Positions 49,191-63,966 of a DNA stretch of 64,000 nucleotides are shown here, one piece after another. Position 1 is the stretch's first letter; the number at the start of each line of letters is the position of its first letter. The notes beneath the pieces were generated by a model. The model had not been told where the DNA came from, did no database searches, and was given only the letters and a program-made list of their open reading frames with translations. Origin of the DNA: an uncultured Lachnospiraceae bacterium (GTDB taxonomy: Bacteria > Bacillota > Clostridia > Lachnospirales > Lachnospiraceae); contig CADBFZ010000008.1 of NCBI GenBank assembly GCA_902794095.1, forward strand, positions 1 through 64,000, in the 5' to 3' direction. The position numbers and the translations under genes were made by a program.

Positions 49191-50108
49191 TTAAATTCCG
49201 GTTAAAAAAGAAACCAACGGAATCGTTACTACCGACATAAGTGTTGTTAACGCAACTCCTTTTGATGCCAGCTCATAGTCTCCCTCATATCTTTGTGCAA
49301 GCATTGCGGTCATACTTCCAACAGGTGTGGCAAGTATTATCATACAAACTGCAAGAAGAAGTTTATCCAGTCCAAACAGTTTGAAAAACAAAACTCCGAT
49401 GATTGGAATAACAATCTGTTTAATCAATGAAAAAATCAGTATCTTCTTTTCCAGAATCATTTCCTTGATCTTCATCTCAGACATGGAATCGCCTATCACC
49501 ATCATCGACAGAGGCGCTGTCAATCCGCTCAAATAATTAACAATACTTTCAACAGTACCCGGAACCCTTACTTTACTCATATAAATGAACAAAGTTAAGA
49601 TACATGCAATTACTCCGACGTTAAAAATCTTTTTCCATTGAATGCCTCCATGCTCATGATTGTTTTTTCTCATTGCACGGATTCCCCATGTATAGATCAA
49701 AACATTGTATGGAATTACGAAAAATGATGCATATAACAAAGCCTCACTGCCATACACTGCTGAGATCAAAGGAAAACCCATAAATCCGATATTCGAAAAA
49801 ACCGTCATAACCCCGAAGGTTCCGTATTCACTTTTTTTCAACGCGAGCAATTTGACAAGAATAAATGAAAAAGCAATCAAAAATGTGTATACGCCAAGTG
49901 ACAGTATGCATATCATCAAAAGACTTCTGCCTTCGATAACAACTTCTTTATTAATTCCGGATGACAGGATAAGAGCAGGATTTGCTACATTAACCACGAT
50001 TCCGGATATAACTCTGCTGCCTTCATCATTTATGATATGAACCTTTCTGCATATATATCCGACCATCATGATAGCGAATAAAATTGCCATCTGATTTAAA
50101 AGGACCAT
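49191..50108 (-). CDS. AEC-family permease
   Basis: 305-residue membrane protein with about ten helices, of the auxin efflux carrier/malate permease family. VNVANPALILSSG (about 38-50) and FSNIGFMGFPLI (about 107-118) are the family motifs. Substrates in bacteria include malate and other organic or amino acids. Start: ATG at 50108, four bases after AGGAGG; the ATG at 50123 would place that site within the gene. Follows a hairpin that separates it from the catabolic operon, but read-through is possible. Confidence 0.85.
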   Translation of the reverse strand: MVLLNQMAILFAIMMVGYICRKVHIINDEGSRVISGIVVNVANPALILSSGINKEVVIEGRSLLMICILSLGVYTFLIAFSFILVKLLALKKSEYGTFGVMTVFSNIGFMGFPLISAVYGSEALLYASFFVIPYNVLIYTWGIRAMRKNNHEHGGIQWKKIFNVGVIACILTLFIYMSKVRVPGTVESIVNYLSGLTAPLSMMVIGDSMSEMKIKEMILEKKILIFSLIKQIVIPIIGVLFFKLFGLDKLLLAVCMIILATPVGSMTAMLAQRYEGDYELASKGVALTTLMSVVTIPLVSFLTGI

Positions 50109-50130
50109 AATCCCTCCTGTCATTTAAATT

Positions 50131-50164: not shown

Positions 50165-51349
50165 CTATTTTACAAATCTGGAATAGTCGAGACTGCTGAT
50201 ATCAAAATCAGTACTCTCTCCCATAACAATATGTGCCATTTGCTTTCCGGTGAAAGGAGAGAAACAAATACCGTCTCCCTCGTGTCCGGCACAGATATAA
50301 AATCCCGGTACCGAATCTACATCGGATACGATAGGAAGATGATCGATAACAAAAGGTCTTACTCCGGAATAAGTTCTTATGCACTTAATGTCGGCAAGTT
50401 CGGGATAAAATCTCATTGCTCTCTCACAGATAGCCTTAACGGTTTCAATCTCCGTCCTGGTATCATAACCTCTGAACAATCTGTTACCGCCCACCAGCAA
50501 GTTACACGCCTTTGTATACTCAAGGTTAAATGCAATATTCTGATCTTCAACCAGCTTACTGACTTTTCTCTTAAAATTGATTCCGTCAAACTTAGACATC
50601 ATATAACCATATTCAAGGATCTTATTATTACAGAGTCTTTCACATTTTTCGGAAACCAGATTTGTTCCTTTTCTGGGTTCAATGGGAATATCTATACCTA
50701 CAAGCTTGCCTATTTCAGGTGCCCACACACCGGCACAGTTGATGATTCGCTTTGTCGAGATCCTGCCGTAGTTTGTATCGATGGACTCTACAGCATTTGT
50801 CTTGGGATCAAGATTGATTCCGGTGATGTCACAATAGGTCATGACTTCCATTCCGAGTTTTTTGCCTTCTTCTACGAAAGCAAAGCATACCTTATAGGGA
50901 CTGACTGCAATACATCCTGAAGGCGGCGTATAAAGAGCTCCGAATATATCCTTTGAAATGTGAGGTTCCATTTCACACAGCTCTTTATTTTCAACCATTC
51001 TAAGAGGATATCCGTCTTCGTTTTGTTTCCTCATATACTCGGAAGCTGCTTCAAACTCAGGTTCTGTCTCGCATACGTACAGACATCCTTTTCTCTCAAA
51101 CTCGAAATCAAAATCAAACTTCTTGGCCAGTTCTTCATAATAATCTATGCTGTACTGCCCCATCTTAGTATCTATTCCGGGTTGTTTATCACAGATCAGT
51201 CCGACAGCATCACAATGACTGGATGAACCGCTTGCAATATCGCCCTTTTCAAGTAACAAAGTTTTCAGTCCTCTGTCAGCAAGATGATAAGCAACCGATG
51301 TACCGATGGCACCTGCTCCGATGACCACAACATCATATACTAAAGACAT
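50165..51349 (-). CDS. FAD-dependent amino acid dehydrogenase (DAO family, beta subunit)
   Basis: 394-residue flavoprotein of the D-amino-acid oxidase fold. VVIGAGAIGTSVAYHLADRG (residues 8-27) binds FAD and GHEGDGICFSPFTGK (about 353-367) is the C-terminal FAD contact. It matches the catalytic beta chain of electron-transferring complexes that oxidise proline, D-hydroxyproline, sarcosine or opines rather than an oxygen-using oxidase. It would make an imine and pass electrons to its Fe-S and flavin partners. AAGGAGG precedes the ATG, 16 bases from the BFD gene. Substrate unknown. Confidence 0.82.
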   Translation of the reverse strand: MSLVYDVVVIGAGAIGTSVAYHLADRGLKTLLLEKGDIASGSSSHCDAVGLICDKQPGIDTKMGQYSIDYYEELAKKFDFDFEFERKGCLYVCETEPEFEAASEYMRKQNEDGYPLRMVENKELCEMEPHISKDIFGALYTPPSGCIAVSPYKVCFAFVEEGKKLGMEVMTYCDITGINLDPKTNAVESIDTNYGRISTKRIINCAGVWAPEIGKLVGIDIPIEPRKGTNLVSEKCERLCNNKILEYGYMMSKFDGINFKRKVSKLVEDQNIAFNLEYTKACNLLVGGNRLFRGYDTRTEIETVKAICERAMRFYPELADIKCIRTYSGVRPFVIDHLPIVSDVDSVPGFYICAGHEGDGICFSPFTGKQMAHIVMGESTDFDISSLDYSRFVK

Positions 51350-51365
51350 ATATGCACCCTCCTTC

Positions 51366-51650
51366 TTACTCTACAACTCCATTAGCCAGATCTCCGAAAG
51401 AGATAGGTCTGATCGGAGGTCTTGCTGATGAAGTGCCAACCTCCCAGGGCTTTGCTCCAAGTTCCTGTGCAAGGATCTGCTGTACCATTTTTTCACAGGT
51501 TCTTCCCTGGCAAAGTCCCATTCCCGCTCTGACACGTCTTTTTACCCCCACAACATCCTTTGCTCCCTGACGAATAGCTTCTTTTATTTCAGCCACCGTC
51601 ACTTCTTCACAGCGACAAACGATCATATCATCACTAAAATATTCTGCCAT
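51366..51650 (-). CDS. BFD-like (2Fe-2S) subunit
   Basis: 94 residues. Cysteines in CRCEEVT (residues 12-14) and GLCQGRTC (about 46-53) form the four-ligand pattern of BFD-like [2Fe-2S] domains. The C-terminal RPPIRPISFGDLA stretch matches the end of OoxA/HcnB-type alpha chains, where this domain is usually fused; here it is a separate small protein, as in the four-subunit proline dehydrogenases. Electron transfer within the complex is the likely role. Confidence 0.82.
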   Translation of the reverse strand: MAEYFSDDMIVCRCEEVTVAEIKEAIRQGAKDVVGVKRRVRAGMGLCQGRTCEKMVQQILAQELGAKPWEVGTSSARPPIRPISFGDLANGVVE

Positions 51651-51682
51651 AGTTTTATCCCAGCCTTTCTTATCAGTCTCTC

Positions 51683-52177
51683 CTATAAGCGTTTAATGCT
51701 TCTTACCTCATCGGCATATTCTTTAGGAATTTCTACGGTGACTACGGGTGTATGATCGAAGGCTGCGGGATTCATCACGTTTACAACCTTCGCATCGCAT
51801 ACCTCCTCTCCTTTTCTGTTAACAGCTGTAACTTCCATACCTTTCTCAGGAGTCGGCATATACTCATAAGGAAAAGCAACCGTTGCTGTATTTTCCGAAT
51901 AAGCTTTGTTAACGATAAAGATAGCAAGTCCGGGACATTTGGAAACGCAGACTCCGCAACCCGTGCACTTATCATGAGAACAAGTCGGAAGATTCGTGAT
52001 CGGATCCCCTATATGAATTGCTCCGAATCTGCAAGCAGCTTCACAGGGATTGCAGGGAATCTCCTGAACGCATTCGATAACGGCAACCGGCCCCTTCGCA
52101 TAACGTTCATCAGAAGGCAATTTCTGAATCTGACTCAGTTCTTCATATTCCAGATAACCAGTATTGATCAATGCCAT
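51683..52177 (-). CDS. 4Fe-4S ferredoxin-type subunit
   Basis: 164 residues. Two cysteine sets, ECVQEIPCNPCEAAC (about 35-49) and CSHDKCTGCGVCVSKCPG (about 67-84), should hold two [4Fe-4S] clusters. The C-terminal 75 residues are beta-rich and of unknown role. It corresponds to the ferredoxin-like gamma chain of dye-linked proline dehydrogenase complexes and gives the flavoproteins a route to low-potential carriers. Confidence 0.8.
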   Translation of the reverse strand: MALINTGYLEYEELSQIQKLPSDERYAKGPVAVIECVQEIPCNPCEAACRFGAIHIGDPITNLPTCSHDKCTGCGVCVSKCPGLAIFIVNKAYSENTATVAFPYEYMPTPEKGMEVTAVNRKGEEVCDAKVVNVMNPAAFDHTPVVTVEIPKEYADEVRSIKRL

Positions 52178-52189
52178 TTGACATCCCTC

Positions 52190-53326
52190 CTAATCCATTT
52201 CAACCGCTGCTACGACTTTCTCTTCGTATTCAGCAAGAATATTATTTTTTTCGATCTGTCTTCTCTCACCAAAAGGACCCATTCTCAGAGCTTCCAATCT
52301 CTTCCAGATCTCAATCCTCATTTTCTCCGCTTCTTTGGGTTCAATGAGTCCCAACGATTCAACTGCGGAAATACCGGCAATTCTTCCTTCTTCGAGTGCG
52401 GTATTTGCCTCTTCAACTCCTGTTGCATCGCCTGCTACATATACACCCTTTTTGGATGTTTCCATTTTGTCATTGTGAAGAGGAATAAATCCGCCAAAAG
52501 GTCCGTTGAAAGTAAGTCGGCATTTCTCAAGTTTGACCATATCCGTTGCAGGCTTAAGTCCTGCACCGATGGTAACGGTATCGGCTTCGATCTCTTTTTC
52601 GGTACCTGGAATGGGCTGAAACTTATCATCCACCTCGGCAATAACAACTTTACAAACTGTTCCGTCTTCTCCGGGAATCGCTTCAACAACGGTGTGTTTC
52701 GTATAAATCGGAACACCTGCGCGCCTAATCTTTGCTGCATGAACCGCATACCCTCCGATCTTGGGAGCGGCTTCAATAAGTGCAACCACATCACATCCGG
52801 CCTGCATAAGCTGATATGAAACGATCAGTCCTACATTTCCGGATCCGACCATTACAATTTTATTTCCGGGTTTTACGTGATTGACGTTGATCATTGTCTG
52901 TGCAGCTCCCGCACCCATAACACCGGGTGTGGTCCATCCCTTAAAGCGGACAACATTTTCGCTTGCGCCAGTTGCAATGATAACCTTCTTGGATTTAAGG
53001 GTTATGACTTCTTTTTCTCCTCCGTCGATACCTTTCTCTATTGCAATGAGATTACCGGGGAATGCACCGATGACTGTGCTCTGAAGCCAAATTTCAACGC
53101 CTGCTTTCTCTGCTTCATCAAGAAGCATCTTACCTATGTCAAAACCTCTTGTTCCGGAACGATGTGCACTTGATCCAAAGAATTTATGGATCTGCTTAAA
53201 TAACTGTCCACCGGGTTTCATATTCAGATCTACCAATAATACATCTGCTCCTGCCTTTGCCGCTTCGATCGAAGCTGCAAGTCCGGCAGGGCCTGCTCCT
53301 ACTACCAATACATCTCTTTCCAACAT
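52190..53326 (-). CDS. FAD/NAD(P)-dependent oxidoreductase (alpha subunit)
   Basis: 378-residue pyridine-nucleotide-disulphide-type flavoprotein. VVGAGPAGLAASIEAAKAG (residues 8-26) binds FAD, MVGSGNVGLIVSYQLMQAG (about 159-177) is the NAD(P) Rossmann, and GVYVAGDATGVEEANTALEEG (about 291-311, shown here as GDATG) closes the FAD site. No redox-active CxxC is seen. It resembles the middle of HcnB/OoxA alpha chains; the usual N-terminal [2Fe-2S] domain is a separate gene just upstream. Confidence 0.83.
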   Translation of the reverse strand: MLERDVLVVGAGPAGLAASIEAAKAGADVLLVDLNMKPGGQLFKQIHKFFGSSAHRSGTRGFDIGKMLLDEAEKAGVEIWLQSTVIGAFPGNLIAIEKGIDGGEKEVITLKSKKVIIATGASENVVRFKGWTTPGVMGAGAAQTMINVNHVKPGNKIVMVGSGNVGLIVSYQLMQAGCDVVALIEAAPKIGGYAVHAAKIRRAGVPIYTKHTVVEAIPGEDGTVCKVVIAEVDDKFQPIPGTEKEIEADTVTIGAGLKPATDMVKLEKCRLTFNGPFGGFIPLHNDKMETSKKGVYVAGDATGVEEANTALEEGRIAGISAVESLGLIEPKEAEKMRIEIWKRLEALRMGPFGERRQIEKNNILAEYEEKVVAAVEMD

Positions 53327-53365
53327 AATATTAACCGTCCCTTTCTCCCGATCCTTTTTGTCAGG

Positions 53366-53671
53366 TTATTTCAGTCCGTCCTGTGTCATTATCACCATGC
53401 CCTCTTTAACGGGAGTAATGCAGGTTCTGACATTTGCTTTTCCGTCAACAACCATCGAACAGTCCGAGCACTGTCCTATTCCGCAGAACAGTCCGCGTGG
53501 TTCATGTTTTTTAACTGTATAACGATTAACCTTTATGCCACTTGCGAGGAGTGCAGCAAGGATTGGTTCACCTTCATAAGCTTCGATTTCTTTGCCATCA
53601 ACCGTAATCTTTACTTTCTTCTCTTTCTTATCAACATCAAGGATGCAATGCTGTTCCACTCTCACACACAT
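53366..53671 (-). CDS. Plant-type (2Fe-2S) subunit
   Basis: 101 residues with a Fer2_4-type fold: CGIGQCSDCSMVVDG (about 64-78) and a last cysteine in VRTC (about 85) give the C-x4-C-x2-C-xn-C pattern. Such domains form the N terminus of sarcosine oxidase alpha and HcnB-like proteins. Here split off, 40 bases upstream of the FAD/NAD(P) subunit. AGAGGTG before the ATG. Confidence 0.85.
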   Translation of the reverse strand: MCVRVEQHCILDVDKKEKKVKITVDGKEIEAYEGEPILAALLASGIKVNRYTVKKHEPRGLFCGIGQCSDCSMVVDGKANVRTCITPVKEGMVIMTQDGLK

Positions 53672-53756
53672 ACAGACACCTCTCTAATTATTTTCAATAA
53701 TCCGGTCCCGACAATTAATTCACGCCGGAACCGGTTCAAGGAGCACTTTAAGTACT

Positions 53757-54137
53757 TCAGGCAATTACCGCCGTAAACTCCATCTCAACAAGACAACCGT
53801 CAACCATCTTTACACACTGGGTGCAGCATCTTGCAGGATAATTTCCTTCCTCAAAATATGTCTTGTAAACCTCATTCATCTCAGGAATAAGATTGATATC
53901 CGAGATGTAGATAGTTACTCTTCCGACATCTGCCATTGATGCTCCGGCCGCTTCAAGAACCGCCTTGGCATTCTCCATGGTTGCCTTAGTCTGCTCTTTC
54001 ATTCCTCCGGGAACCATTTCGCCTGTAACATCTGTTCCAATCTGAGTTGTAAAGATCATATTTCCCATCTTTACACCGAGTGCATAAGGACCATGACACT
54101 CACCGCACTTCTCACTTGTAATCTGTACTCTGCTCAT
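53757..54137 (-). CDS. ridA: RidA family enamine/imine deaminase
   Basis: 126 residues. Rid/YjgF fold, with the active-site arginine in NYPARCCTQC (about 102) and the VEMEFTAVIA end. It hydrolyses reactive enamines or imines to keto acids and ammonia. In this operon it would complete deamination of the imine produced by the FAD dehydrogenase complex. AGGAGG before the ATG. Confidence 0.9.
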   Translation of the reverse strand: MSRVQITSEKCGECHGPYALGVKMGNMIFTTQIGTDVTGEMVPGGMKEQTKATMENAKAVLEAAGASMADVGRVTIYISDINLIPEMNEVYKTYFEEGNYPARCCTQCVKMVDGCLVEMEFTAVIA

Positions 54138-54166
54138 TTTTTATATCCTCCTGTTTTTGAAAATAA

Positions 54167-55159
54167 TCAAAAGATGATGTTTACATCTTTGTTAACCAAT
54201 GTTGTGGGAATAGTCTTTTCCGAGAAACGCTGAACCAGCTGCTTCAGCGCTCTTGCCCTTCCGTCATAGAATGAATCTTCTGAGATAAATGCTGCATGAG
54301 GTGTGATGACCACATTATCGAATTCGAATAATTCTGATGTTTCATTTGTCTCATCTTCAATTACATCAATGCCTGCACCTTTGATGGTTCCACTTCGAAG
54401 CGCCTCTACCAGTGCCGGTTCATCAACAACAGACCCTCTTGCGGTGTTGATAAGGAATGCTTCCTTTTTCATGAGCTTCAGCTCTTTTTCTCCGATAAGA
54501 TGATATGTAACATCTTTTATAAGAGGACAATGAAGCGATACAAAATCTGATGTCTTAAGAAGATCTTCAAGGGTATCAGCCTTTTCACATCCGAACTCAG
54601 CCAGGTATTCGGCGGTTTTTGTCGGTGCGTATACCAGAATCTTCAACCCCAGCGCTTTCAATACAGGCACCATCTTCTTGGGAATTTCTCCGAAGAATAC
54701 CATTCCGAATGTCTTACCGGTCAATCGATATGTCTTGTATCCGAGAAGCGGATCCCACTTACCGGATCTTACGGACTTATCATAGAAAGTAATCTTTCTT
54801 ACAAGATCAATCATCATACCGATCGCATGGACCGAAACCTCTTCCGCACAAAATCCGGGAATATTGGTTACGGATATTCCGTGTGCGGTTGCACCTGCGA
54901 TATCCACATTATTAAAACCGATGGATTGAAGTGAGACCTGCTTGAGGGTTGGACAATTGTCCATTACTTCGCTCGTGACCTGTTCATATTCAACGACAAG
55001 GCCTTCTGCCTGAACCTCATTAATGTGAGATATAAAATTTTTGGTCCCTTCCGAATCCTTGATCTCAATCAGTTCGATATCCTTAACTCCCCACTCTTCA
55101 AGAAGACTTTTTTCGTAATCAAGATTATCGTCAATGTTGTAATATAAAACCTTTGCCAT
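54167..55159 (-). CDS. D-isomer specific 2-hydroxyacid dehydrogenase
   Basis: 330 residues. Reduces a 2-keto acid to the D-2-hydroxy acid with NAD(P)H. Catalytic Arg lies in NTARGSVVDEPALVEAL (about 236), Glu in GIDVIEDE (about 265) and His in TPHAAF (about 285). The nucleotide loop reads FFGEIPKKM where GFGxIGxxx is usual: the first glycine is Phe and the last is Pro, though Pro at that position also occurs in the CtBP-like subgroup. Start ATG at 55159 with GGGGGAG upstream. May regenerate NAD+ on the keto acid from the imine. Confidence 0.82.
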   Translation of the reverse strand: MAKVLYYNIDDNLDYEKSLLEEWGVKDIELIEIKDSEGTKNFISHINEVQAEGLVVEYEQVTSEVMDNCPTLKQVSLQSIGFNNVDIAGATAHGISVTNIPGFCAEEVSVHAIGMMIDLVRKITFYDKSVRSGKWDPLLGYKTYRLTGKTFGMVFFGEIPKKMVPVLKALGLKILVYAPTKTAEYLAEFGCEKADTLEDLLKTSDFVSLHCPLIKDVTYHLIGEKELKLMKKEAFLINTARGSVVDEPALVEALRSGTIKGAGIDVIEDETNETSELFEFDNVVITPHAAFISEDSFYDGRARALKQLVQRFSEKTIPTTLVNKDVNIIF

Positions 55160-55176
55160 TTTCACTCCCCCTTCCT

Positions 55177-56460
55177 TCAGATCGATGCCAGTGCTTCTGC
55201 CAATATTCCAAGGCCTTCATCAAGTTCTTCCTTGGTAACATTTAACGGTGTTGCAAATCTCATACCGTTTCCGTGAACACCGCAGTTTAATGTAAGAAGA
55301 TGTCTCTTGAAACATTCCGCTTTGACCTTTGCCCAAATTTCAGGTGCCGGAGTTCCGTCTTCATACGCAAACTCGATTGCCGTCATAAGACCAAGACCTC
55401 TTACATCATAGATGATCGGATACTTCGCCTGTAACTTCTTAAGTTCGGAGCGGAGATATTCACCCATCTTGTTTACGTTCTCAAGAAGTGTTCCGTCTTC
55501 AAACTGTTCCAGTACTACGCATCCGGCAGCTGCCGCTACCGGGTTTCCTCCGAAAGTAGTACCGTGAGTTCCAACGGGCCATTTTGCTGCAATCTCAGGC
55601 TTAGTAAGCACTGCGCTCATAGGAAGACCGCCCGCAATCGCTTTACCGCAAGTCATGATATCGGGGATGACATCAAAGTGCTGTGATGCCCACATCTTGC
55701 CGGTTCTTCCGTAACCCGCCTGGATCTCATCATATATAAGAAGAATTCCGTTCTCATCGCATATCTTTCTGACTTCCTGCATGAAATCCTTGGGAGGAAC
55801 AACATATCCTCCTTCTCCCATAACAGGTTCCATGTAGATATACGCAACGTCCTCGGGACAAACGATATATCTGAGAAGCTTCTTTAACTCAAAGAGTGAA
55901 TACTCGCCTCTCTTATCGGGTGCGATTTCCGGAGGGCACAGATCACGTCCGGGATAGGGAGCAAAATACACATTTCCCATCAAGCCTTCATAATGTTTTC
56001 TATACTTGGAATTCGATCCGGTAATGGATGTCGCACCACATGTTCTTCCATGAAACGAACCCATGAATGCAATACCTGCAGATCTTCCCGTATATGACAT
56101 TGCAAGCTTTAATGCAGAATCTGTTGCTTCAGCACCTCCGTTTGAAAAGAAAACAGAAGTCAAACCTTCAGGGGCAACACCAGCCAGTTTCTTAGCAAGT
56201 GTGAGCGTTGATTCATAGTTAACAAGGTTGAAAGAAGCGTTCACAAGATTGTCTGCTTGATCCTTAATTGCTTCTACGATAGGGTCAAAATTGTGACCCA
56301 TGGCATTGACCGCAATTCCCTGAACAAAATCAAGATACTTGTCTCCGTTCACATCCCACAAGTAGCATCCCTTTGCTTTCTTTGCTATCAAATCCGTATG
56401 CTTGTAGAAAACGGGATTCAGATACTGCTTAAAATCCTCAAACTTCATCACTTCTGCCAT
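55177..56460 (-). CDS. Class III PLP enzyme (aminotransferase or racemase)
   Basis: 427 residues, PLP fold type I class III. PLP-phosphate segment SNGGAEATDSALKLA (about 103-117), EPVMGEGGYVVPP (about 213-225), IYDEIQAGYGRTG (about 244-256) and Schiff-base Lys in CGKAIAGGLPMSA (about 272). The family holds 4-aminobutyrate, ornithine and taurine aminotransferases and also the archaeal and lactobacillar amino-acid racemases. Adjacent iron alcohol dehydrogenase favours transamination of an omega-amine to an aldehyde. Start ATG at 56460 with AAGGTGA before it; a later ATG is possible. Confidence 0.85.
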   Translation of the reverse strand: MAEVMKFEDFKQYLNPVFYKHTDLIAKKAKGCYLWDVNGDKYLDFVQGIAVNAMGHNFDPIVEAIKDQADNLVNASFNLVNYESTLTLAKKLAGVAPEGLTSVFFSNGGAEATDSALKLAMSYTGRSAGIAFMGSFHGRTCGATSITGSNSKYRKHYEGLMGNVYFAPYPGRDLCPPEIAPDKRGEYSLFELKKLLRYIVCPEDVAYIYMEPVMGEGGYVVPPKDFMQEVRKICDENGILLIYDEIQAGYGRTGKMWASQHFDVIPDIMTCGKAIAGGLPMSAVLTKPEIAAKWPVGTHGTTFGGNPVAAAAGCVVLEQFEDGTLLENVNKMGEYLRSELKKLQAKYPIIYDVRGLGLMTAIEFAYEDGTPAPEIWAKVKAECFKRHLLTLNCGVHGNGMRFATPLNVTKEELDEGLGILAEALASI

Positions 56461-56509
56461 AATCTTCACCTTGTCCTTTCGTTATATATTCATCAAACAT
56501 CAATATGTT

Positions 56510-57676
56510 CTAATGATTTGCTTTCTCAAGAATTGCATATACATCTTCTCTTCTGACTTTTACAGGATTGACTGCGAGTAATCTGTAACCCATGGTTCCA
56601 TCCACTATCGTGTCAAACATATCCGGAGTAACCGGTATATCCAGATCTTTGAGTGAATCAGGGATTCTGAGATCAAATGCCATTTTCCTGACTGCTTTTA
56701 CCGACAACTCTGCAGCGTCTCTTTCGGATAATCCTTCTATGTTTTCTCCAAGAAGCTTGGCGATCTTTGCAAACTTTGCCGGGTTACCGGGGACATTCAT
56801 CTCCATTACATAAGGAAGCAAAAGAGAATTTCCTATTCCGTGAGGTGTATGAGCAATTCCTCCCATTGCCTGGGATATTCCGTGTACTGCTCCGAGTCCT
56901 GCGTTAACCATCGCTGCAGCTCCCAATATGGAAGCTATGGCCATCTGACTTCTGGCCTCTATATTTGTCGGATTAAACATAGCGGTTCTAATATTCTTTC
57001 CGATCATCTCAATACATTTCTCAGCGTACATATCGCTTATAGGCTCAGCATTAAGTGATACATAAGCTTCAATGGCATGTGTCAGGGCATCCATTCCGGT
57101 ACTTGCGGTGATCATGGGTGGCATACCTATATGCATTAACGGATCTACAATTGCAACCAGCGGCATCAAATATTCATGTGTAACCGAAAGCTTTATATTA
57201 TTCTGATTGTCGGTAATGACAGACGCTGCGGTTACTTCAGATCCGGAACCTGCAGTTGTGGGAATCGCTATCAAAGGAAGAGGTCTGTTGGTTACGGTCT
57301 TTGTTCCTCCGAACAAGTACTCCCTTACGGATCCTTCATTTGTTGCAAGCATGCACATTGCTTTGCTTGTATCAATAGAGCTTCCTCCGCCTACTGCGAT
57401 CACTCCGTCAGCTCCGGATTCAAGGAGAATGTCCTTAGCCTCATCAACAGCTTCAATAGGAGGATCCGCAATTGCTTCTGTAAACAGCACATAATCAACT
57501 TTCTGGGAATCAAGCCCTGCAATAAGATCCTTAAAGCCCTGAGTACTTGCAATTCCCCCATCGGTCACTACCATCACCTTTCGGATTCCGTACTGATCAA
57601 GAACAGGTTTGATATTTAATGAAGTCCCCTCACCGAATATGATTTTTGTAGGAAGCTTAAAAATAAAATCTTTCAT
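56510..57676 (-). CDS. Iron-containing alcohol dehydrogenase
   Basis: 388 residues, group III NAD(P)-dependent dehydrogenase. GGGSSIDTSKA (about 94-104) binds cofactor; metal ligands are expected in DPLMHIGMP (Asp near 190), MDALTHAIEAY (His near 203), GAVHGISQAMGG (His near 264) and HTPHG (His near 276). Likely reduces an aldehyde or semialdehyde to an alcohol, for example from the neighbouring class III enzyme. ATG at 57676 with GAGGTGAAG upstream. Confidence 0.92.
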   Translation of the reverse strand: MKDFIFKLPTKIIFGEGTSLNIKPVLDQYGIRKVMVVTDGGIASTQGFKDLIAGLDSQKVDYVLFTEAIADPPIEAVDEAKDILLESGADGVIAVGGGSSIDTSKAMCMLATNEGSVREYLFGGTKTVTNRPLPLIAIPTTAGSGSEVTAASVITDNQNNIKLSVTHEYLMPLVAIVDPLMHIGMPPMITASTGMDALTHAIEAYVSLNAEPISDMYAEKCIEMIGKNIRTAMFNPTNIEARSQMAIASILGAAAMVNAGLGAVHGISQAMGGIAHTPHGIGNSLLLPYVMEMNVPGNPAKFAKIAKLLGENIEGLSERDAAELSVKAVRKMAFDLRIPDSLKDLDIPVTPDMFDTIVDGTMGYRLLAVNPVKVRREDVYAILEKANH

Positions 57677-57693
57677 CTCTTCACCTCGCATAC

Positions 57694-58410
57694 TTACAAT
57701 CCCAAATATGATTTTTGAATCTCTGAATCATTCATCAGATCTTTAGCATTGCCTTCTCGAACTATCTGACCGACTTCGATGATATAAGCTCTGTTTGCTG
57801 CGGTTAGAGCCATCTGTGCGTTCTGCTCTACCAGCAGGATAGTTGTATGCCGCTCTTTGTTTATCTGCCTTATGATATGAAAGACATCTTCAACAATAAC
57901 CGGTGCTAGTCCCATGGATGGTTCATCCAGAAGCAGCAGTTTGGGCCTTGCCATTAACGCTCTTGCCATCGCAAGCATCTGTAACTCACCGCCTGACAAT
58001 GTGCCACTGATCTGTTTCATTCTTTCCTTAAGTCTTGGAAACAGCTCATACACCCAATCCTTGTCTCTTTTTATTTCAGCTTTATCCTTTCTCAGAAACG
58101 CACCGATTTCGATATTCTCCGCTACGGTCAGAATTGGAAATATTCCCCTTCCTTCAGGTACCTGAGAAATTCCGGCTGACACAAGCTTGTAGCTCTCAGT
58201 ACCTCCTATGCTCTTTCCGCAATACTCGATTTCTCCGCTCTTTGGTTTTAGCAGGCCTGATATAGTATGCATCGTAGTAGTCTTGCCGGCGCCGTTAGGT
58301 CCGATCAAAGCAACCGTTTCTCCTTCATCCACATGAAAAGACACATCTCTCAAAGCGGGAACCACTCCGTAATTTACAAATAAGTTTTTAACTTCAAGTA
58401 CACTGCTCAT
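57694..58410 (-). CDS. livF: Branched-chain-type ABC transporter ATPase LivF
   Basis: 238 residues. Walker A GPNGAGKTT (about 36-44), ABC signature LSGGELQMLAMARALM (about 139-154) and Walker B LLLLDEPSMGLAP. LivF type by length and MGLAP after the Walker B. Works with LivG on the inside of the membrane. AAAGGAG precedes the ATG. Confidence 0.95.
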   Translation of the reverse strand: MSSVLEVKNLFVNYGVVPALRDVSFHVDEGETVALIGPNGAGKTTTMHTISGLLKPKSGEIEYCGKSIGGTESYKLVSAGISQVPEGRGIFPILTVAENIEIGAFLRKDKAEIKRDKDWVYELFPRLKERMKQISGTLSGGELQMLAMARALMARPKLLLLDEPSMGLAPVIVEDVFHIIRQINKERHTTILLVEQNAQMALTAANRAYIIEVGQIVREGNAKDLMNDSEIQKSYLGL

Positions 58411-58434
58411 ACCAGGGCTCCTTTCCTATGATCC

Positions 58435-59223
58435 TTATTTATCCTCTTCGTCCTTAAACTCTCCGGAACCCAGATAAGCTTCAATGACACGTGGATTAGT
58501 CTGTATTTCTGCCGGGGTGCCCTCCGCAATTTTCTGACCATGATCAAGAACTATTATTCTGTCCGAGATTCCCATGACAAATTTCATATCATGTTCGATA
58601 ATAAGTACCGTCACCTTCATTTCCTGGGTTATGTAATGAATAACATCGGTCAATTCCTCTTTTTCGAAATTATTCATTCCTGCACCGGGCTCATCCAGAA
58701 GCAGCAGTTTCGGCTTCGTAGCAAGACCTCTCGCAATCTCTAAAAGCCTTTGTTTTCCGTAGGGAAGTGATGTTGCCATTTCGGATTCCATCTCCTCAAG
58801 CCCTACTATTTTCAGAAGTTCCATGCACTCATCAACCACCTCACGTCGCTTCTTATTTGCTTTCCCGGGGCTAAGTACCGATTTTAATAAACTCTCATTC
58901 TGGCAATCCGGATGTGCTACAAGAACATTTTCAAGAACCGTCATACTCTTGATTAGTCTGATATTCTGAAACGTTCTGGCTATGCCAAGTCTTGTTCTTT
59001 CATGCGCTTTCAGATCCGTTATCTTATTGTGATCAAAAAAGATATTTCCTGAAGTGCATTTATAAACACCGGTAAGGAGATTGAACAGTGTTGTTTTACC
59101 TGCTCCGTTAGGTCCGATAAGGGATAATACTTCTCCCTTCTTCTGAACGAGGTTTACACTATCCACAGCCACAAGCCCGCCAAATTTAATTGTTACTTCT
59201 TTGGTTTCAATTATTGTATTCAT
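58435..59223 (-). CDS. livG: Branched-chain-type ABC transporter ATPase LivG
   Basis: 262 residues. Walker A GPNGAGKTT (about 35-43), a LivG-typical long insert between Walker A and signature, YGKQRLLEIARGLAT (about 150-164) and Walker B LLLLDEPGAGMN. Signature starts with LPYGKQR, as in LivG. Start ATG at 59223 with AAGGAGG upstream. Confidence 0.95.
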   Translation of the reverse strand: MNTIIETKEVTIKFGGLVAVDSVNLVQKKGEVLSLIGPNGAGKTTLFNLLTGVYKCTSGNIFFDHNKITDLKAHERTRLGIARTFQNIRLIKSMTVLENVLVAHPDCQNESLLKSVLSPGKANKKRREVVDECMELLKIVGLEEMESEMATSLPYGKQRLLEIARGLATKPKLLLLDEPGAGMNNFEKEELTDVIHYITQEMKVTVLIIEHDMKFVMGISDRIIVLDHGQKIAEGTPAEIQTNPRVIEAYLGSGEFKDEEDK

Positions 59224-59258
59224 AACCGACTGCCTCCTTAGCATATGTACAAAGCAGT

Positions 59259-60272
59259 TTATTTCTTTTTGTAATTCTCAAATGCTTTAATCTTGTATTC
59301 GTTAAGCATTCGACTTGATCTTGACCAAATCCCCTCAGGTCTGAAGATCATCATTACCACCATCAATGCTCCGTAGATTACCATTCTGTATTCGGAAAAA
59401 GCTCTTAATACTTCAGGAAGCGCAGTGAGAAGAACTGCCCCAAGGATTGAACCGGGAATAGAACCGATTCCTCCAAGCACAACCATTGAAACCATCTTGA
59501 TCGATTCAGCGTAAGCAAATGATGTGGGAGATATCATTCCCATGTAAACCGCATAAAAGCTACCCATAAAAGCTGCCATTCCTCCTCCCAGTGCAAAACC
59601 GAGGAGTTTATACTTCTTAACATTTATTCCCAATGCGGTAGCAGCTATGTCATCTTCGTTAACAACGATCATCGCCATTCCAAAACCGGAATTATTAAAA
59701 CGTTTCATAAATACAACAAACAGAATCACTATCAGTGCTACGAAATAGAAGTAAGCTTGCTTACTGCTGATAACGTATCCGAAGATAACCGGATCCGGAA
59801 TGTTAGGGATTCCTGCAGGGCCTCTTGTGATGGATACTGAGTTTGTTAAGAACAGTCTGAAAACCTCACCGAAACCGAGAGTAATAACCGCCAAATAATC
59901 ACCTCTTAATTTCAACGTTGGAAGACAAAGGAGCATTGCAAACCCGGAAGTAAAAGCCGTACTCAGGATCGTTGCCGGGAAGAAATTCATACCCGTTTGT
60001 GTCATCAACAGTGTCGTGATATAGGCGCCCATTCCATACAGGCAAACATGTCCCAGAGAAAACTGACCGGACCATCCGATTATCATGTTCAGTGATAATG
60101 TCAGGCAGGCGTAAATGCTGCACAGAATAACAATATGAAGAATGTAATTATCCGTGATGATATATGGTGCCGACACGATCAGACCAATAAGTGCAATCAG
60201 GAAAATCATCTTCTGCCACTTTGTAAACCTGATACTTTTAATTGTCTTCAATAAATCTTTAACTTTATTCAT
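59259..60272 (-). CDS. livM: Branched-chain-type ABC transporter permease LivM
   Basis: 337 residues with about ten membrane helices and the LivM features: SLNMIIGWSGQFSLGH (about 58-73) and VLGGIGSIPGSILGA (about 265-279). Start ATG at 60272 with GAGGGTGAT upstream; a longer frame lacks this. Partner of LivH. Confidence 0.95.
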   Translation of the reverse strand: MNKVKDLLKTIKSIRFTKWQKMIFLIALIGLIVSAPYIITDNYILHIVILCSIYACLTLSLNMIIGWSGQFSLGHVCLYGMGAYITTLLMTQTGMNFFPATILSTAFTSGFAMLLCLPTLKLRGDYLAVITLGFGEVFRLFLTNSVSITRGPAGIPNIPDPVIFGYVISSKQAYFYFVALIVILFVVFMKRFNNSGFGMAMIVVNEDDIAATALGINVKKYKLLGFALGGGMAAFMGSFYAVYMGMISPTSFAYAESIKMVSMVVLGGIGSIPGSILGAVLLTALPEVLRAFSEYRMVIYGALMVVMMIFRPEGIWSRSSRMLNEYKIKAFENYKKK

Positions 60273-60302
60273 ATGATCACCCTCATTTAACCGGAGCACC
60301 GT

Positions 60303-61175
60303 CTATACTTTATCGATATGCTTTGCTCCCATAAGTCCGGAAGGTCTGACAACAAGGATTAATATCATTACGAAAAACGCAAACGCATCTCTGTATGCAG
60401 ATGAGATATATCCTGCGCCAAGGCTTTCGATAGTTCCGATTATGAATCCTCCAAACACAGCTCCCGGAATCGATCCTATTCCTCCGAGAATCGCTGCCGC
60501 AAACGCTTTCATTCCCAACAGATATCCCATTGTCGGATATACTGCACTGTAATAAACACCTATAAGAATTCCTGCAACGCCCGCCATAAAAGCTCCCACT
60601 CCGAATGTTCCGGATATGATAAGATTTGTGTTAATACCCATGAGCTTGGCATTATCTACACTGACCGAGCATGCTCGCATTGCAATTCCGATTTTTGTTC
60701 TATATACGAGGATGTAAAGGATCAAAAGCATTACCGAAGTAACGACCAGAATCAGGATCTGAAGATTGGTTATTGTAAAACCGCTAAAAGAAAATGACTT
60801 AGATTCGATTGCCTTGAACTGTCTTGTTCCGCTTCCGAAAATGAGCTGAGCAAGATTCTGAAGAAACGTCGACATACCCAGTGCGCTTACCAAAACTGCC
60901 ATTTTACGATTCCCTGATTTTATCGGACGATACGCCACTCTTTCAACCGACATGCCAAGGACGGAAGCAAATAATGCAACGAGCAAAACCATCGCAAATA
61001 CCGGCATCTTTAAATATGTAGTAAGAAGTAATCCTATAAAAGTTGCAAACATGAGTACATCGGCGTGTGCCCAGTTTACAATTTGTAATACTCCGTAAAC
61101 CATCGAGTATCCGAGCGCGACCATAGCATATATCCCGCCTACTATAATTCCGTTCAACAAATGCTGGAAAAACAT
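60303..61175 (-). CDS. livH: Branched-chain-type ABC transporter permease LivH
   Basis: 290 residues, about eight helices. GIIVGGIYAMVALGYSMVYG (residues 9-28) and AILGGIGSIPGAVFGG (about 229-244) are the LivH signatures. AGGAGGTGA precedes the ATG, 30 bases from livM. Confidence 0.95.
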   Translation of the reverse strand: MFFQHLLNGIIVGGIYAMVALGYSMVYGVLQIVNWAHADVLMFATFIGLLLTTYLKMPVFAMVLLVALFASVLGMSVERVAYRPIKSGNRKMAVLVSALGMSTFLQNLAQLIFGSGTRQFKAIESKSFSFSGFTITNLQILILVVTSVMLLILYILVYRTKIGIAMRACSVSVDNAKLMGINTNLIISGTFGVGAFMAGVAGILIGVYYSAVYPTMGYLLGMKAFAAAILGGIGSIPGAVFGGFIIGTIESLGAGYISSAYRDAFAFFVMILILVVRPSGLMGAKHIDKV

Positions 61176-61186
61176 ATGATCACCTC

Positions 61187-61813
61187 CTACACAGATTTTT
61201 TCTCGTCATATAATTCTTTGATAATCTTTACGCATTTATCTCTTCCCAAATATCCTGAGTTAAGACATATGTCGTAATTAATCGGATTGTTCCAAACGCT
61301 TCCGCCTGTGTAGTACTTGTAGTAGTCGGATCTATATTTGTCCGTCTTGTTGATCATTCGAATCGCTTCCATTTCGCCGACTCCCATTCTTTCAACGATT
61401 GAACTGACGCAATAGCTCATTGGTGCATCTATATAAACCTTAATGGTATTTTTCTTATCCCTTAAAATATAATCAGCGCATTTTCCGACAATGATACAGC
61501 TTTCAGTCTTTGCCAACTCTTCAATTACTTCACGCTGCAGATAGAACAGATTATTATCATGTATAAATTTTCTGTCAGAAGGTTCAACCTTATAATTAAC
61601 CGGAACCGATCCGACCATTTTCCTAAGGAAGGAAATCTTTACTCTCTCATCCGTCTCCTCGAACAACTCTTTACTTATTCCGCTTTTATCCGAAGCAAGA
61701 CTTAAGATCTCTTTTTCATAACAAGGTATATCAAGCAGTTTAGATAACCTAACGCCTATATCTTTTCCCCCGCTACCAAAGCCTCTGGCAATTGTAATGA
61801 TCACGTTTTTCAT
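61187..61813 (-). CDS. Cytidylate kinase-like protein
   Basis: 208-residue P-loop protein: ARGFGSGGKDIGVRLSKLL (residues 9-27) carries the nucleotide loop, and IVGKCADYIL (about 105-114) and DAPMSYCVSSIVERM (about 124-138) match the cytidylate-kinase-like family found as orphans in Clostridia. It is not the housekeeping Cmk and its substrate is unknown. Its presence within an ABC importer operon, 11 bases from livH and 16 from the racemase-like gene, is unusual. ATG at 61813 with GAGGTGAT upstream. Confidence 0.75.
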   Translation of the reverse strand: MKNVIITIARGFGSGGKDIGVRLSKLLDIPCYEKEILSLASDKSGISKELFEETDERVKISFLRKMVGSVPVNYKVEPSDRKFIHDNNLFYLQREVIEELAKTESCIIVGKCADYILRDKKNTIKVYIDAPMSYCVSSIVERMGVGEMEAIRMINKTDKYRSDYYKYYTGGSVWNNPINYDICLNSGYLGRDKCVKIIKELYDEKKSV

Positions 61814-61829
61814 ACCGATCACCTCTTCT

Positions 61830-62615
61830 CTAAATAAATCCCTCGTACGGCTTCTGGGCTACCGCTGAATGAAGCCACTTGATCAATGTTATAAAATCGA
61901 AAACCGGCAACCCTGTTTCTCTCTGGATTGAAGAAGCATATGGAGGCATATCACTGCATTCAAGAAGTATGGCTGCCACATCATCATGTTCACTGACTGC
62001 TTCAATCGCTTTCCCAACTACATCGGCTCTTGCAAGACTGTTATCCCATTCTCCCCAATTCTTGATCACACATGAAAAGTTATCCGATGATGCAAGATCT
62101 TTTATTACGAGACGCTCTTTCATCTCTTTTGTGATTCCACAGTTTATAAGTAATCTCTCCGTTATGGATTTTTCATCTGCGGTCAAAATCGCAAGCTTTT
62201 GATTTGGCTTTATAAGTGAAAGAACCCACGGTACCTGCATTAAACTGGAAAGAGCTACCGGAACATCAAACATGCCTGAGATCGATTTCTGATAATTTCC
62301 AAAAAATCCGCATGCGCCGCTTATTGCCCTAACGCCTTCTTTGACCAGTTGTCTGCACGCTTCTTCAATAGCACTCTGAACCTTGTCGTCACAGGCAAAC
62401 AATTCATCACAATTAATGTTTTTGACCGGGATCATTCGTACCGGAAAAGGATATGTACTTGCATTTACAACATTTCCGGGCATCAGCGGATAATAAACGT
62501 CTTCTATGTAGACAACTCCTATCGGATACCCTCCAATGTTTTGCCCTTTTTTCATCTTCACGACGACATCGTCATTGTTAGAATTCAAAAATCCATATTG
62601 ATAATTCTTCTCCAT
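61830..62615 (-). CDS. Asp/Glu racemase-family protein
   Basis: 261 residues in the two-domain Asp/Glu/hydantoin racemase fold. Candidate catalytic cysteines lie in SGACGFFGN (Cys near 101) and LLECSDMPPYA (Cys near 219). The subgroup is that of uncharacterised racemase-like proteins near amino-acid catabolic genes. It may invert the imported amino acid so that the FAD complex can oxidise it, but isomerase or lyase roles are also known in the fold. CGGAGGG before the ATG. Confidence 0.72.
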   Translation of the reverse strand: MEKNYQYGFLNSNNDDVVVKMKKGQNIGGYPIGVVYIEDVYYPLMPGNVVNASTYPFPVRMIPVKNINCDELFACDDKVQSAIEEACRQLVKEGVRAISGACGFFGNYQKSISGMFDVPVALSSLMQVPWVLSLIKPNQKLAILTADEKSITERLLINCGITKEMKERLVIKDLASSDNFSCVIKNWGEWDNSLARADVVGKAIEAVSEHDDVAAILLECSDMPPYASSIQRETGLPVFDFITLIKWLHSAVAQKPYEGFI

Positions 62616-62631
62616 AATCCCTCCGGATCAC

Positions 62632-62654
62632 CCGGGGAAGTTTTCCTTCCCCGG
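62632..62654 (-). repeat. Intercistronic hairpin after livK
   Basis: Perfect 9-bp stem CCGGGGAAG/CTTCCCCGG with a five-base loop between livK and the next gene. No T run follows, so it probably protects livK message and lets the binding protein be made in excess. Confidence 0.7.
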
Positions 62655-62681
62655 ATTTACACGTATGTTTTTTAACCAAGC

Positions 62682-63854
62682 TTATTCAATATGTACAAAC
62701 TTTCCGTCAATGATCTCGAACATAAGCTCTTCTTTTGCACTGTTACAATTCTCAAAAGTGTAAGTTCCGCAGACACCTTCATAAGTAATTACCGAGATCT
62801 GTTCATTAATACTTTCTCTGGTTAATTCTCCGTCACAATTCTTCATTGCTTCGATTACAATCATGGTTGCATCATATGCGGATGCGGCCCAGTTACCGGG
62901 TTCATATCCATACTCAGCCTTGAATGCCTCAACAAAATCCTTTGCTTTTTCAGAAAGTTCATTATCAAATTCACCCTGAACATATACGCCGTCAGTATCG
63001 TATCCGAGAAGTGCAGGAGCATATCCGCCGTTACCGCAAAGGATCAACATGTCTCCGCATCCGTAATCATCTCTCTGGTCACAAATGAGTCCCTGCTCAG
63101 TTACACAACCTGCAATAAAGATTGCCTCTGCTCCTGATGCTCCGGTTGCGGTAAGCTGTGTGGAATAATCAACTGTCTCGCCATAAACATAGGTCTGAAC
63201 GGTTACAACTTCGATACCAAGTTCTTCGCACTTTGCCTGGAAAGGTTCTGCAATTCCCAATCCGTAATCATCATTCTCGTAGAAAAGCGCTACCTTGGTG
63301 ATCCCCTTTCCGCTTAAGAATTCTGCCGCATATGATCCGCAGTCGGAATCATTGGGAGCGGTTCTATAGAAGTATTCACTACATCCTGTAAGTGCGGGAG
63401 TAGTAGCTACGGGGCTGATTGCCGGAAGATTGCCGCTCTTATATATATCAACCTGAGCCAACATACATGAACTGTTATAGGAAGATACAACTGCGAGGAT
63501 TTCATCCTTATCTACGAACTTATTTGCAATAGATGCTGCTGATGTGGGTGAACCTTCATCGTCCTCCTGAACAAGTGCTATCTCTCTTCCGTTAATTCCT
63601 CCTGCTTCGTTAGCCTGCTTGATTGCCAGATTAATCGCATCAACGCAGGTCTGGCCATCTGCTGCTATGGTTCCGGTAAGTGGGAAAGAAGCACCGATCA
63701 CAATCTTCTCATCAGTAGATCCTGCACTTGATGATCCGGAAGGAGTGACACCTCCGGTTCCTCCTGCAGAACCTGTATCTCCGCATCCCGAAAGCATAAG
63801 TGCAGCAGCAGCGATTAATGCATATGCTTTCATTAATCCATTTCGTCTTTTCAT
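62682..63854 (-). CDS. livK: Branched-chain-type ABC substrate-binding lipoprotein LivK
   Basis: 390 residues. Signal peptide with lipobox LSGC (Cys24), Gly/Ser-rich linker, then a type 1 periplasmic-binding fold with IGASFPLTGTIAADGQ (about 52-67), AGGINGREIALV (about 88-99) and a C-terminal half. The ligand is an amino acid or related compound; the specific residue set cannot be judged. GAGGAGGT precedes the ATG. First gene of the operon. Confidence 0.95.
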   Translation of the reverse strand: MKRRNGLMKAYALIAAAALMLSGCGDTGSAGGTGGVTPSGSSSAGSTDEKIVIGASFPLTGTIAADGQTCVDAINLAIKQANEAGGINGREIALVQEDDEGSPTSAASIANKFVDKDEILAVVSSYNSSCMLAQVDIYKSGNLPAISPVATTPALTGCSEYFYRTAPNDSDCGSYAAEFLSGKGITKVALFYENDDYGLGIAEPFQAKCEELGIEVVTVQTYVYGETVDYSTQLTATGASGAEAIFIAGCVTEQGLICDQRDDYGCGDMLILCGNGGYAPALLGYDTDGVYVQGEFDNELSEKAKDFVEAFKAEYGYEPGNWAASAYDATMIVIEAMKNCDGELTRESINEQISVITYEGVCGTYTFENCNSAKEELMFEIIDGKFVHIE

Positions 63855-63893: not shown

Positions 63894-63936
63894 AAAAGGC
63901 GCATTCCCAAATCTCAACTTGGTAATGCGCCTTTGC
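63894..63936 (-). terminator. Terminator-like hairpin in the livK leader
   Basis: Minus strand: AAAGGCGCATT (63895-63905) pairs perfectly with AATGCGCCTTT (63924-63934), with an inner CCAA/TTGG extension, and is followed by a TTTTGTATT tail. It lies between promoter and start codon and can switch the whole catabolic operon by attenuation. The 5' arm begins GCAAAGGCGC. Confidence 0.8.
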
Positions 63937-63966
63937 ATTTGTGTCAGTTCTTAATTTCTTAGTTGC

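Follow-up and report, generated by a model that had tools for sequence, protein, structure and literature searches.

In Pseudomonas, D-glutamate is catabolised through dguABC, a set comprising a DAO-type dehydrogenase, a RidA protein and a binding protein, in which the dehydrogenase is a single subunit and there are no iron-sulphur (Fe-S) subunits, racemase or aminotransferase branch. Hydroxyproline clusters of the Bacillota carry a multi-subunit flavin/Fe-S dehydrogenase together with genes for proline racemase, DHDPS-family proteins or aldehyde dehydrogenase. The flavin-containing opine dehydrogenases OdhABC and Nox-Oox are reported to consist of a DAO-type beta subunit, an alpha subunit with a flavin adenine dinucleotide/nicotinamide adenine dinucleotide (FAD/NAD) fold and a small [2Fe-2S] gamma subunit, encoded beside ATP-binding cassette (ABC) importers (PMC4575208). 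The targets of ANTAR proteins have been described as hexaloop hairpins with A at position 1 and G at position 4 that overlap terminators, mostly on nitrogen genes, a target consisting of two tandem hexaloop hairpins, P1 and P2 (PMC3369931). Here, we describe an operon from an uncultured Lachnospiraceae bacterium, contained in a stretch of 64,000 nucleotides (the window: contig CADBFZ010000008.1, positions 1 to 64,000, GenBank assembly GCA_902794095.1) of a 2.3 Mb genome that is 80% complete. The operon runs from livK, the binding-protein gene of an importer, to the gene for a DAO-family dehydrogenase. From sequence comparison, we consider it reasonably probable that it is a LysR-flanked, nitrogen-controlled catabolic cassette, which would serve for import of a solute, adjustment of its stereochemistry, oxidation to an imine, hydrolysis by RidA and disposal of the carbon.

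Like dguABC, the operon encodes a DAO-type dehydrogenase, RidA and a binding protein, but its dehydrogenase is multi-subunit, with Fe-S parts, and is accompanied by a racemase-fold protein and an aminotransferase branch. With the hydroxyproline clusters it shares the multi-subunit flavin/Fe-S dehydrogenase and a neighbouring place in the beta-subunit tree; the five-part layout recurs in one such cluster (L048; loci and genomes are given by our L and G labels) and LIV importers in two (L044 and L048). Here, however, RidA and an Asp/Glu-racemase-fold protein replace the partner enzymes, the beta subunit has its own N-terminal motif (SSHCDA), and the cassette adds an aminotransferase, an alcohol dehydrogenase, a hydroxyacid dehydrogenase and an AEC-family permease. 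OdhABC and Nox-Oox (PMC4575208) are alike in the DAO-type beta subunit, FAD/NAD-fold alpha subunit, [2Fe-2S] subunit and nearby ABC importer, and unlike in that here the BFD-like [2Fe-2S] part is separate, a 4Fe-4S subunit is added and racemase and RidA genes are present. A search of the open-access literature returned nothing fitting an operon of this gene set.

The sixteen open reading frames (ORFs) from livK (63854) to the DAO-family gene (50165) lie on the minus strand, are all complete at the coordinates first given and are separated by gaps of 2–85 bases, in agreement with an earlier, sequence-only reading that had described sixteen tightly packed genes with a largest gap under 90 bases; the gene names in that reading also agree with our assignments by Pfam and NCBIfam profile matches. 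It had taken these genes for one cassette, and a neighbourhood comparison of the dehydrogenase bears this out, as the same genes stand side by side in 14 other genomes, a clustering that is not due to chance. One of these (L006) is nearly identical to the window, and the dehydrogenases of the rest are 66–92% identical.

Fifteen clade rows were compared (L006–L017, L039, L040 and L041, the last being more distant and on a contig that breaks off within the complex), several of them cut by contig ends. RidA, Fer2, Pyr_redox, Fer4, BFD and DAO are all present in every row except L041 (14/15), the BFD genes of L010 and L017 having been missing from the ORF table and recovered by tblastn. RidA directly adjoins Fer2 in 13 of these 14 rows; in L009 the two lie at the ends of separate contigs. 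A racemase-fold gene is present in 14 of the 15, the contig of L006 being cut before that point. A LIV-type importer occurs in L007–L010 and is partly seen in L006, and a polar-amino-acid-type importer occurs in seven rows (L011, ATPase only, L013–L016, L039 and L040); there is no importer on the contigs of L012 and L017, and L041 shows a distant livK only. The conserved core is RidA with the five-part dehydrogenase, nearly always with the racemase-fold gene, and the importer is exchanged.

Around this core, the 2-hydroxyacid dehydrogenase is found in 12 of the 15 rows, an AEC-family permease in 11 (often just 23–31% identical to the window copy), the cytidylate-kinase-like gene in nine (L007, L008, L010, L012–L016 and L039, with both importer types; also in L045) and the iron-containing alcohol dehydrogenase, at 47% identity or more, in eight. 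Members of the aminotransferase clade (at least 65% identity) occur in our own genome and in those of L006–L011, L013, L017, L039 and L040, and were not found in the genomes of L012 and L014–L016. Because the aminotransferase and the iron-containing alcohol dehydrogenase are both missing beside the core in L014–L016, they look accessory.

Close relatives of the DAO subunit are rare. At a threshold of E 1e-80, matches occurred in 10 of 299 genomes sampled from the same family, of which five (our own genome included) reached at least 67% identity and one reached 49%, and in 10 of 398 genomes sampled from the phylum, namely our own and nine at 35–43%; in a class sample of 391 genomes, E 1e-110 was passed by our own genome only. 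A genome of the same genus that is 99% complete (G116) gave no DAO match at E 1e-80, and plasmid searches returned only relatives below 60% identity. A separate collection supplied twelve loci: L006, with the remainder coming from Lachnospiraceae, further Bacillota and a single metagenome-assembled genome of the Spirochaetales.

In a tree built from 38 DAO rows, a branch with 100/99 support set the window and its 15 relatives apart. Their neighbours were eight outgroup rows that had been chosen as hydroxyproline-type clusters, each with at least one hydroxyproline partner gene. With midpoint rooting, five of these eight group with the clade at 87/86, and the clade may have arisen from among the hydroxyproline-type rows. 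Near the N-terminus, the clade reads SSHCDA where the eight hydroxyproline-type rows read x-[CS]-DGN; a second clade motif is R-[TAS]-Y-[SA]-G-V-R-P, in which R-T/A/S-Y, found in 16 of 16 clade rows, aligns with R-T-W of 1y56. R-X-W has been reported for the beta subunit of opine and related enzymes (PMC4575208), but the difference between R-X-Y and R-X-W does not clearly separate families, because most hydroxyproline-type rows share R-X-Y. RidA is absent from all eight hydroxyproline-type rows; that it stands here where hydroxyproline clusters have a cyclic-imine deaminase points to an acyclic imine as product. Because the V-R-P arginine matches a position that we take to be carboxylate-binding in glycine oxidase, the dehydrogenase substrate is likely to be of amino-acid type.

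Between a promoter-like site (Table 1) and livK lies a leader element (63885–63937), formed by a hairpin and then U-rich RNA. Five other leaders folded alongside that of the window gave shuffle z-scores of −5.0 to −8.2. In twelve aligned copies, 93.9% of cells are paired, with two-sided changes in 9 of 15 pairs, and pairing falls to 33–59% in registers slid by one to three columns (L119 was excluded from the alignment and from the covariance model, its 3′ arm having been misplaced by MAFFT). The element precedes the first importer gene, of either type, in 12 of the 12 loci that cover that stretch (the window, L007, L008, L009, L010, L011, L013, L014, L015, L016, L039 and L040). The leader of L010 contains three tandem copies in the model; repeats of the whole element occur, for example, in L120 (three copies) and before glnN in G190 (two). 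L045, a distantly related operon of this family that combines a LIV importer and a DAO complex with two racemase-fold genes and one cytidylate-kinase-like gene, has the element just upstream of its DAO gene. It was not found in the five hydroxyproline-type loci scanned (L042, L043, L044, L047 and L048), and a search of L005, which covers the livK leader, gave no matching Rfam family at the gathering threshold.

The 5′ part of the hairpin can alternatively fold into a mini hairpin of 12 nucleotides, in which three base pairs close a loop of six bases. This was scored over 47 sites. Of these, 13 are clade leaders and 34 come from a further 51 distinct sites, the 17 without a recognisable hexaloop having been dropped by eye. 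The outer pair forms in 44 of the 47 (shuffled maximum 32) and the middle pair in all 47 (shuffled maximum 46); the loop has G at position 4 in 47 and A at position 1 in 40, although, as the sites were picked by hand, this choice has partly shaped the loop letters and has affected the stem covariation less. The livK leader has the A1/G4 hexaloop, overlapping an intrinsic terminator upstream of a gene, that has been described for ANTAR targets.

A covariance model of the twelve leader copies, run on nine genomes, gave 65 rows, of which 60 were classified as sites; the other five were four opposite-strand copies and one before an ileS-like gene. Downstream genes were classed by reading protein N-termini, with Pfam confirming gltB and amtB of our own genome. 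Nine of the 60 sites are the operon's own leaders, 21 stand before nitrogen-assimilation genes (amtB 4, glnN 6, two of these before one gene, glnA 2, gltB 4, glnK 1, asnB 1, glmS 1 and nadE 2) and eight before genes of amino-acid or polyamine transport or catabolism. Our own genome has the element before livK, gltB, glnN, amtB, nadE and the gene for a polar-amino-acid binding protein, and nadE of G1063 is also preceded by it. A stricter pattern found exactly two sites in the window, before livK and nadE, as against four in all over 20 shuffled windows.

In four of the five regions examined (our own genome, G116, G190 and G1069), an ANTAR-domain protein (PF03861) is encoded directly after a glutamine synthetase gene, the latter confirmed by Pfam in our own genome and recognised by its N-terminus in the other three. 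The likeness to the described ANTAR nitrogen regulons (PMC3369931) extends to an A1/G4 hexaloop hairpin over a terminator before genes for glutamate synthase, glutamine synthetase, ammonium transporter and PII, and to an ANTAR protein encoded in the same genome. The livK operon probably belongs to such a nitrogen-control regulon, judging by its leader. G116 is without the operon, yet has the element before amtB, gltB, glnA and glnN, so the operon seems to have joined a nitrogen regulon that already existed. By its leader the operon falls among genes of nitrogen assimilation, so its purpose is more likely to be the scavenging of nitrogen, the carbon being thrown away, than energy.

Two further observations concern the reach of the element. 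A gene of the ornithine-cyclodeaminase/mu-crystallin family has an ANTAR-type leader both at L012:5792 (Pfam), where it lies near the core cassette, and at G1070:C52:30652 (L166, by N-terminus). At G190:C12:30720-30809 (L144, L179), two tandem ANTAR-type leaders stand before an ATP-grasp-like protein (by N-terminus), an unexpected regulon member.

Gene content, synteny, the clade, the leader structure, the element on nitrogen genes and the ANTAR gene beside glnA were computed directly; from them we infer the enzymatic steps, the contact of the ANTAR protein with the leader and the export step, as follows. In nitrogen shortage, the ANTAR antiterminator would hold the hexaloop hairpin and so block the overlapping terminator, allowing the operon to be read, with LysR presumably adding control by substrate. 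The importer would take up an amino-acid-type solute, the two-cysteine racemase-fold protein would set its stereochemistry, the five-part flavin/Fe-S dehydrogenase would oxidise a C–N bond to an imine, and RidA would hydrolyse the imine, freeing ammonia or an amine. Where present, the aminotransferase would remove a second, omega-placed amino group and the iron-containing alcohol dehydrogenase would reduce the resulting aldehyde; reduction of the oxo acid may fall to the 2-hydroxyacid-dehydrogenase-like protein, and the spent carbon may leave the cell through the AEC permease.

Among the individual proteins, the racemase-fold protein has two cysteines, Cys102 and Cys220, that are invariant in 10 of 10 sequences and that we presume to be catalytic. 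Its structural model (predicted local distance difference test, pLDDT, 80) has as nearest solved structures arylmalonate decarboxylase and hydantoin, allantoin and Asp/Glu racemases, at 12–18% identity; the predicted fold is secure but leaves the choice of substrate undecided. In the phylum sample, 24 of the 398 genomes, our own included, contain relatives. Around relatives, 20 regions contained parts of a DAO complex in seven cases, an octopine-dehydrogenase-family gene in two and M24 with RidA in three, and further contexts were an octopine-dehydrogenase-family gene with MTTB and LIV genes with a class III aminotransferase; because these contexts are diverse, they fix no substrate. At L059:7643-9687, on an Enterococcus raffinosus megaplasmid, an octopine/nopaline-dehydrogenase-family gene overlaps a racemase-fold gene of 40% identity, and relatives of both genes lie near MTTB methyltransferase genes in L095 and L111.

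The class III pyridoxal phosphate (PLP) enzyme keeps the residues expected of an omega-aminotransferase of the GABA/ornithine type, namely the PLP lysine, the HGRT arginine, the GEGG glutamate and the C-terminal arginine, whose roles we assume, in 11 of 11 distinct clade rows (the motif table also held a second L007 copy and the non-clade L104, both outside the 11). An archaeal racemase of the same PLP class has HGQT and GDAG at those motifs, and an amino-acid racemase was set aside here, as HGRT and GEGG are of aminotransferase type. The cytidylate-kinase-like protein gave a low-confidence model (pLDDT 65), the nearest solved structures being a putative kinase and an uncharacterised protein of gut Clostridia.

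Several findings weigh against a nitrogen-controlled catabolic cassette of this kind. Of the 60 model sites, 22 do not stand before a clearly related gene, five having an unclear link and 17 preceding an unrelated gene or none, and the glnN region of a fifth genome (G171) shows no ANTAR-like neighbour by eye, no profile search having been made there. The described ANTAR target has two hairpins (PMC3369931), whereas the livK leader has one evident hairpin close to the presumed transcript start; an upstream P1-like hairpin occurs in one of 16 leaders, against a shuffled mean of 1.3. Because the second hairpin is no commoner than in shuffles, an ANTAR reader of the livK leader RNA is not proved. 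The nucleotide loop of the D-2-hydroxyacid dehydrogenase is altered: in 12 of 12 orthologues FFGEIPK (FFGAIPK in one) replaces the glycine loop and Ala the NAD-binding Asp, with the R, E and H residues kept, whereas outside relatives keep the Asp in nine of nine and the first loop glycine in seven of nine. From these residues, the enzyme may use NADPH or may have changed function. In LivK, a position that is acidic in several aligned solved binders is Asn in the window, and acidic in two relatives; neither LivK nor the polar-amino-acid binding protein allowed a ligand to be predicted, since the residue at the amine site varies within the clade. Nitrogen control would, moreover, be compatible with energy use.

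As to the substrate, two candidates stand foremost, a free amino acid and an N-linked, opine-like compound. That the cassette takes a free amino acid, either acidic or neutral (such as L-Asp or L-Glu, converted to the D-form, then to the imine and the oxo acid), in the manner of the D-glutamate dehydrogenase and RidA of Pseudomonas, is rather unlikely on balance: the Asp/Glu-racemase fold with its two cysteines, the polar-amino-acid importer of seven clade rows and the position of RidA next to the dehydrogenase all fit, but the racemase model lies near arylmalonate decarboxylase and hydantoin and allantoin racemases as well, and the aminotransferase branch is left unexplained.

That branch would be accounted for, as one of two separate reduction branches, if the substrate were an N-(carboxyalkyl) amino acid that the dehydrogenase split in two, an oxo acid passing to the 2-hydroxyacid dehydrogenase and an omega-amino acid to the aminotransferase and the iron-containing alcohol dehydrogenase, with both halves released as hydroxy acids and the nitrogen retained. 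The dehydrogenase is of the same superfamily as the flavin opine dehydrogenases (PMC4575208), and at three non-clade loci (L059, L095 and L111) racemase relatives adjoin genes of the octopine-dehydrogenase family. BLAST, however, found no octopine-dehydrogenase-family gene within the window or in the flanking DNA compared for the 15 clade rows, three relatives are without the aminotransferase branch, the nearest enzymes in the DAO tree are those of hydroxyproline clusters, and the beta subunit has R-X-Y, as most hydroxyproline rows do, in place of the expected R-X-W; we hold opine-type cleavage to be unlikely. Going further, a new anaerobic pathway that scavenges a two-part opine-like compound, discards both halves as hydroxy acids and keeps the nitrogen, its single-hairpin ANTAR leader having travelled along with the cassette from one importer to another and from phylum to phylum (Bacillota and, in one metagenome-assembled genome, Spirochaetota), is a speculative proposal that we think improbable.

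The sequence-only reading had seen the operon as a redox-balanced fermentation, in which an amino acid is inverted, oxidised and hydrolysed and the products are reduced; on such a view electrons would balance and the cell would gain energy. Its order of import, inversion, oxidation and hydrolysis stays plausible, given the racemase cysteines and RidA beside the dehydrogenase, as a series of predicted steps that does not name a substrate; its class III PLP assignment stands, the motifs now specifying an aminotransferase rather than a racemase. Fermentation as the purpose is doubtful and, in our estimate, quite unlikely. Two reductase-type genes, for the iron-containing alcohol dehydrogenase and the 2-hydroxyacid dehydrogenase, do accompany the oxidising dehydrogenase, and the host families are anaerobic, but the leader type is common to gltB, glnA, glnN, amtB and glnK, no energy-conserving step, and none that depends on coenzyme A (CoA) or an acid kinase, is evident in the cassette, and the 2-hydroxyacyl-CoA dehydratase family PF06050 was not found in our own genome (80% complete), for which reason a hydroxyglutaryl-CoA route was also set aside. 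Of the two dehydrogenases proposed as electron sinks, the 2-hydroxyacid dehydrogenase has an unproved NADH role, its loop being non-standard in all 12 orthologues, and the iron-containing alcohol dehydrogenase looks accessory. The order of steps thus survives, and the purpose shifts from fermentation to nitrogen supply.

Hydroxyproline or proline catabolism is very improbable: the closest outgroup dehydrogenases (37–45% identity) do have genes for proline racemase, DHDPS-family proteins or aldehyde dehydrogenase in their clusters, but these partners stand beside none of the 15 clade rows in the flanking DNA compared, the proline racemase family PF05544 was not found in our own genome at 80% completeness, and the N-terminal motif differs from that of all eight hydroxyproline-type rows.

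For a nitrogen-scavenging cassette, the leader would name the condition, nitrogen shortage, and the conserved core the type of reaction, oxidation that yields an imine and its hydrolysis by RidA, which makes the operon testable and relevant to how gut and rumen anaerobes may obtain nitrogen from unusual amino compounds. An ANTAR target that works with one visible hairpin, if true, would alter the strategy for finding such regulons; with a covariance model that combined hairpin and terminator, many nitrogen genes were reached in the nine genomes searched.

Table 1 Features of the livK operon and associated sites; positions are those of the window unless a locus label is given.
Feature	Position	Strand	Evidence
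Promoter-like site TTTACA-17-TATAAT	63967..63995	-	Consensus scan, 11/12 matches
12-nucleotide mini hairpin TGC-AAAGGC-GCA, hexaloop with A1 and G4, ANTAR-target type	63926..63937	-	
Intrinsic-terminator-like hairpin in livK leader, overlapping the mini hairpin, U-rich RNA next	63895..63934	-	z −5.5, covariation
livK, HAAT-type substrate-binding lipoprotein	62682..63854	-	PF13458
Asp/Glu-racemase-fold protein	61830..62615	-	NF005679/PRK07475 over cut-off; PF01177 over cut-off
Cytidylate-kinase-like P-loop protein	61187..61822	-	PF13189
livH permease	60303..61175	-	Pfam
livM permease	59259..60299	-	Pfam
livG ATPase	58435..59244	-	Pfam
livF ATPase	57694..58410	-	Pfam
Iron-containing alcohol dehydrogenase	56510..57691	-	No NCBIfam cut-off reached
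Class III PLP aminotransferase, HGRT and GEGG motifs	55177..56469	-	PRK08117 subfamily over cut-off
D-2-hydroxyacid-dehydrogenase-family protein, FFGEIPK nucleotide loop, R-E-H residues kept	54167..55165	-	
RidA, candidate imine deaminase	53757..54137	-	PF01042
Dehydrogenase subunit, [2Fe-2S] Fer2_4	53366..53671	-	Pfam
Dehydrogenase alpha-type subunit, FAD/NAD(P) Pyr_redox_2	52190..53326	-	Pfam/NCBIfam
Dehydrogenase subunit, 4Fe-4S ferredoxin-like	51683..52177	-	Pfam
Dehydrogenase subunit, BFD-like [2Fe-2S]	51366..51650	-	Pfam
Catalytic beta subunit, DAO-family FAD amino-acid dehydrogenase, clade motifs SSHCDA and R-[TAS]-Y-[SA]-G-V-R-P	50165..51349	-	
AEC-family permease, possible product exporter	49191..50123	-	PF03547
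proC, probably housekeeping	48396..49178	-	NCBIfam
ANTAR response regulator after glnA, own genome	L194:14654-15235		PF03861

At its edges, the locus exceeds what had been read from the letters: the sixteen genes were correctly recognised, the probable continuation into AEC and proC and the divergent LysR gene outside the window are additions, and the leader RNA had been missed. A same-strand AEC permease gene begins 41 bases past the DAO gene and proC follows 12 bases past AEC, and the operon probably extends through both. As the sole proC found in our own genome (80% complete), this copy is probably a housekeeping gene; the operon of L007 contains a different proC. The promoter consensus scan gave 30 sites overall against 40.7 in shuffles and is weak evidence alone, and comparable boxes were seen by eye upstream of the leaders of several relatives.

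Further downstream, nadE (46295–48322), for glutamine-dependent NAD synthetase, has a separate sigma-70-like promoter site matching 12 of 12 positions (48377–48349) and an ANTAR-type leader hairpin of its own (48272–48318, minus strand). Because this hairpin is downstream of the ORF's first ATG (48322), the true start is probably an ATG near 48265. On the other side, the divergent LysR gene lies just past the window end (contig 64040–64927; L005:1041-1928), 185 bases from livK. In the genome of L007, a TwoAYGGAY RNA (RF01731, 62 bits) was found near the LysR gene, at L115:11093-11260 on the minus strand.

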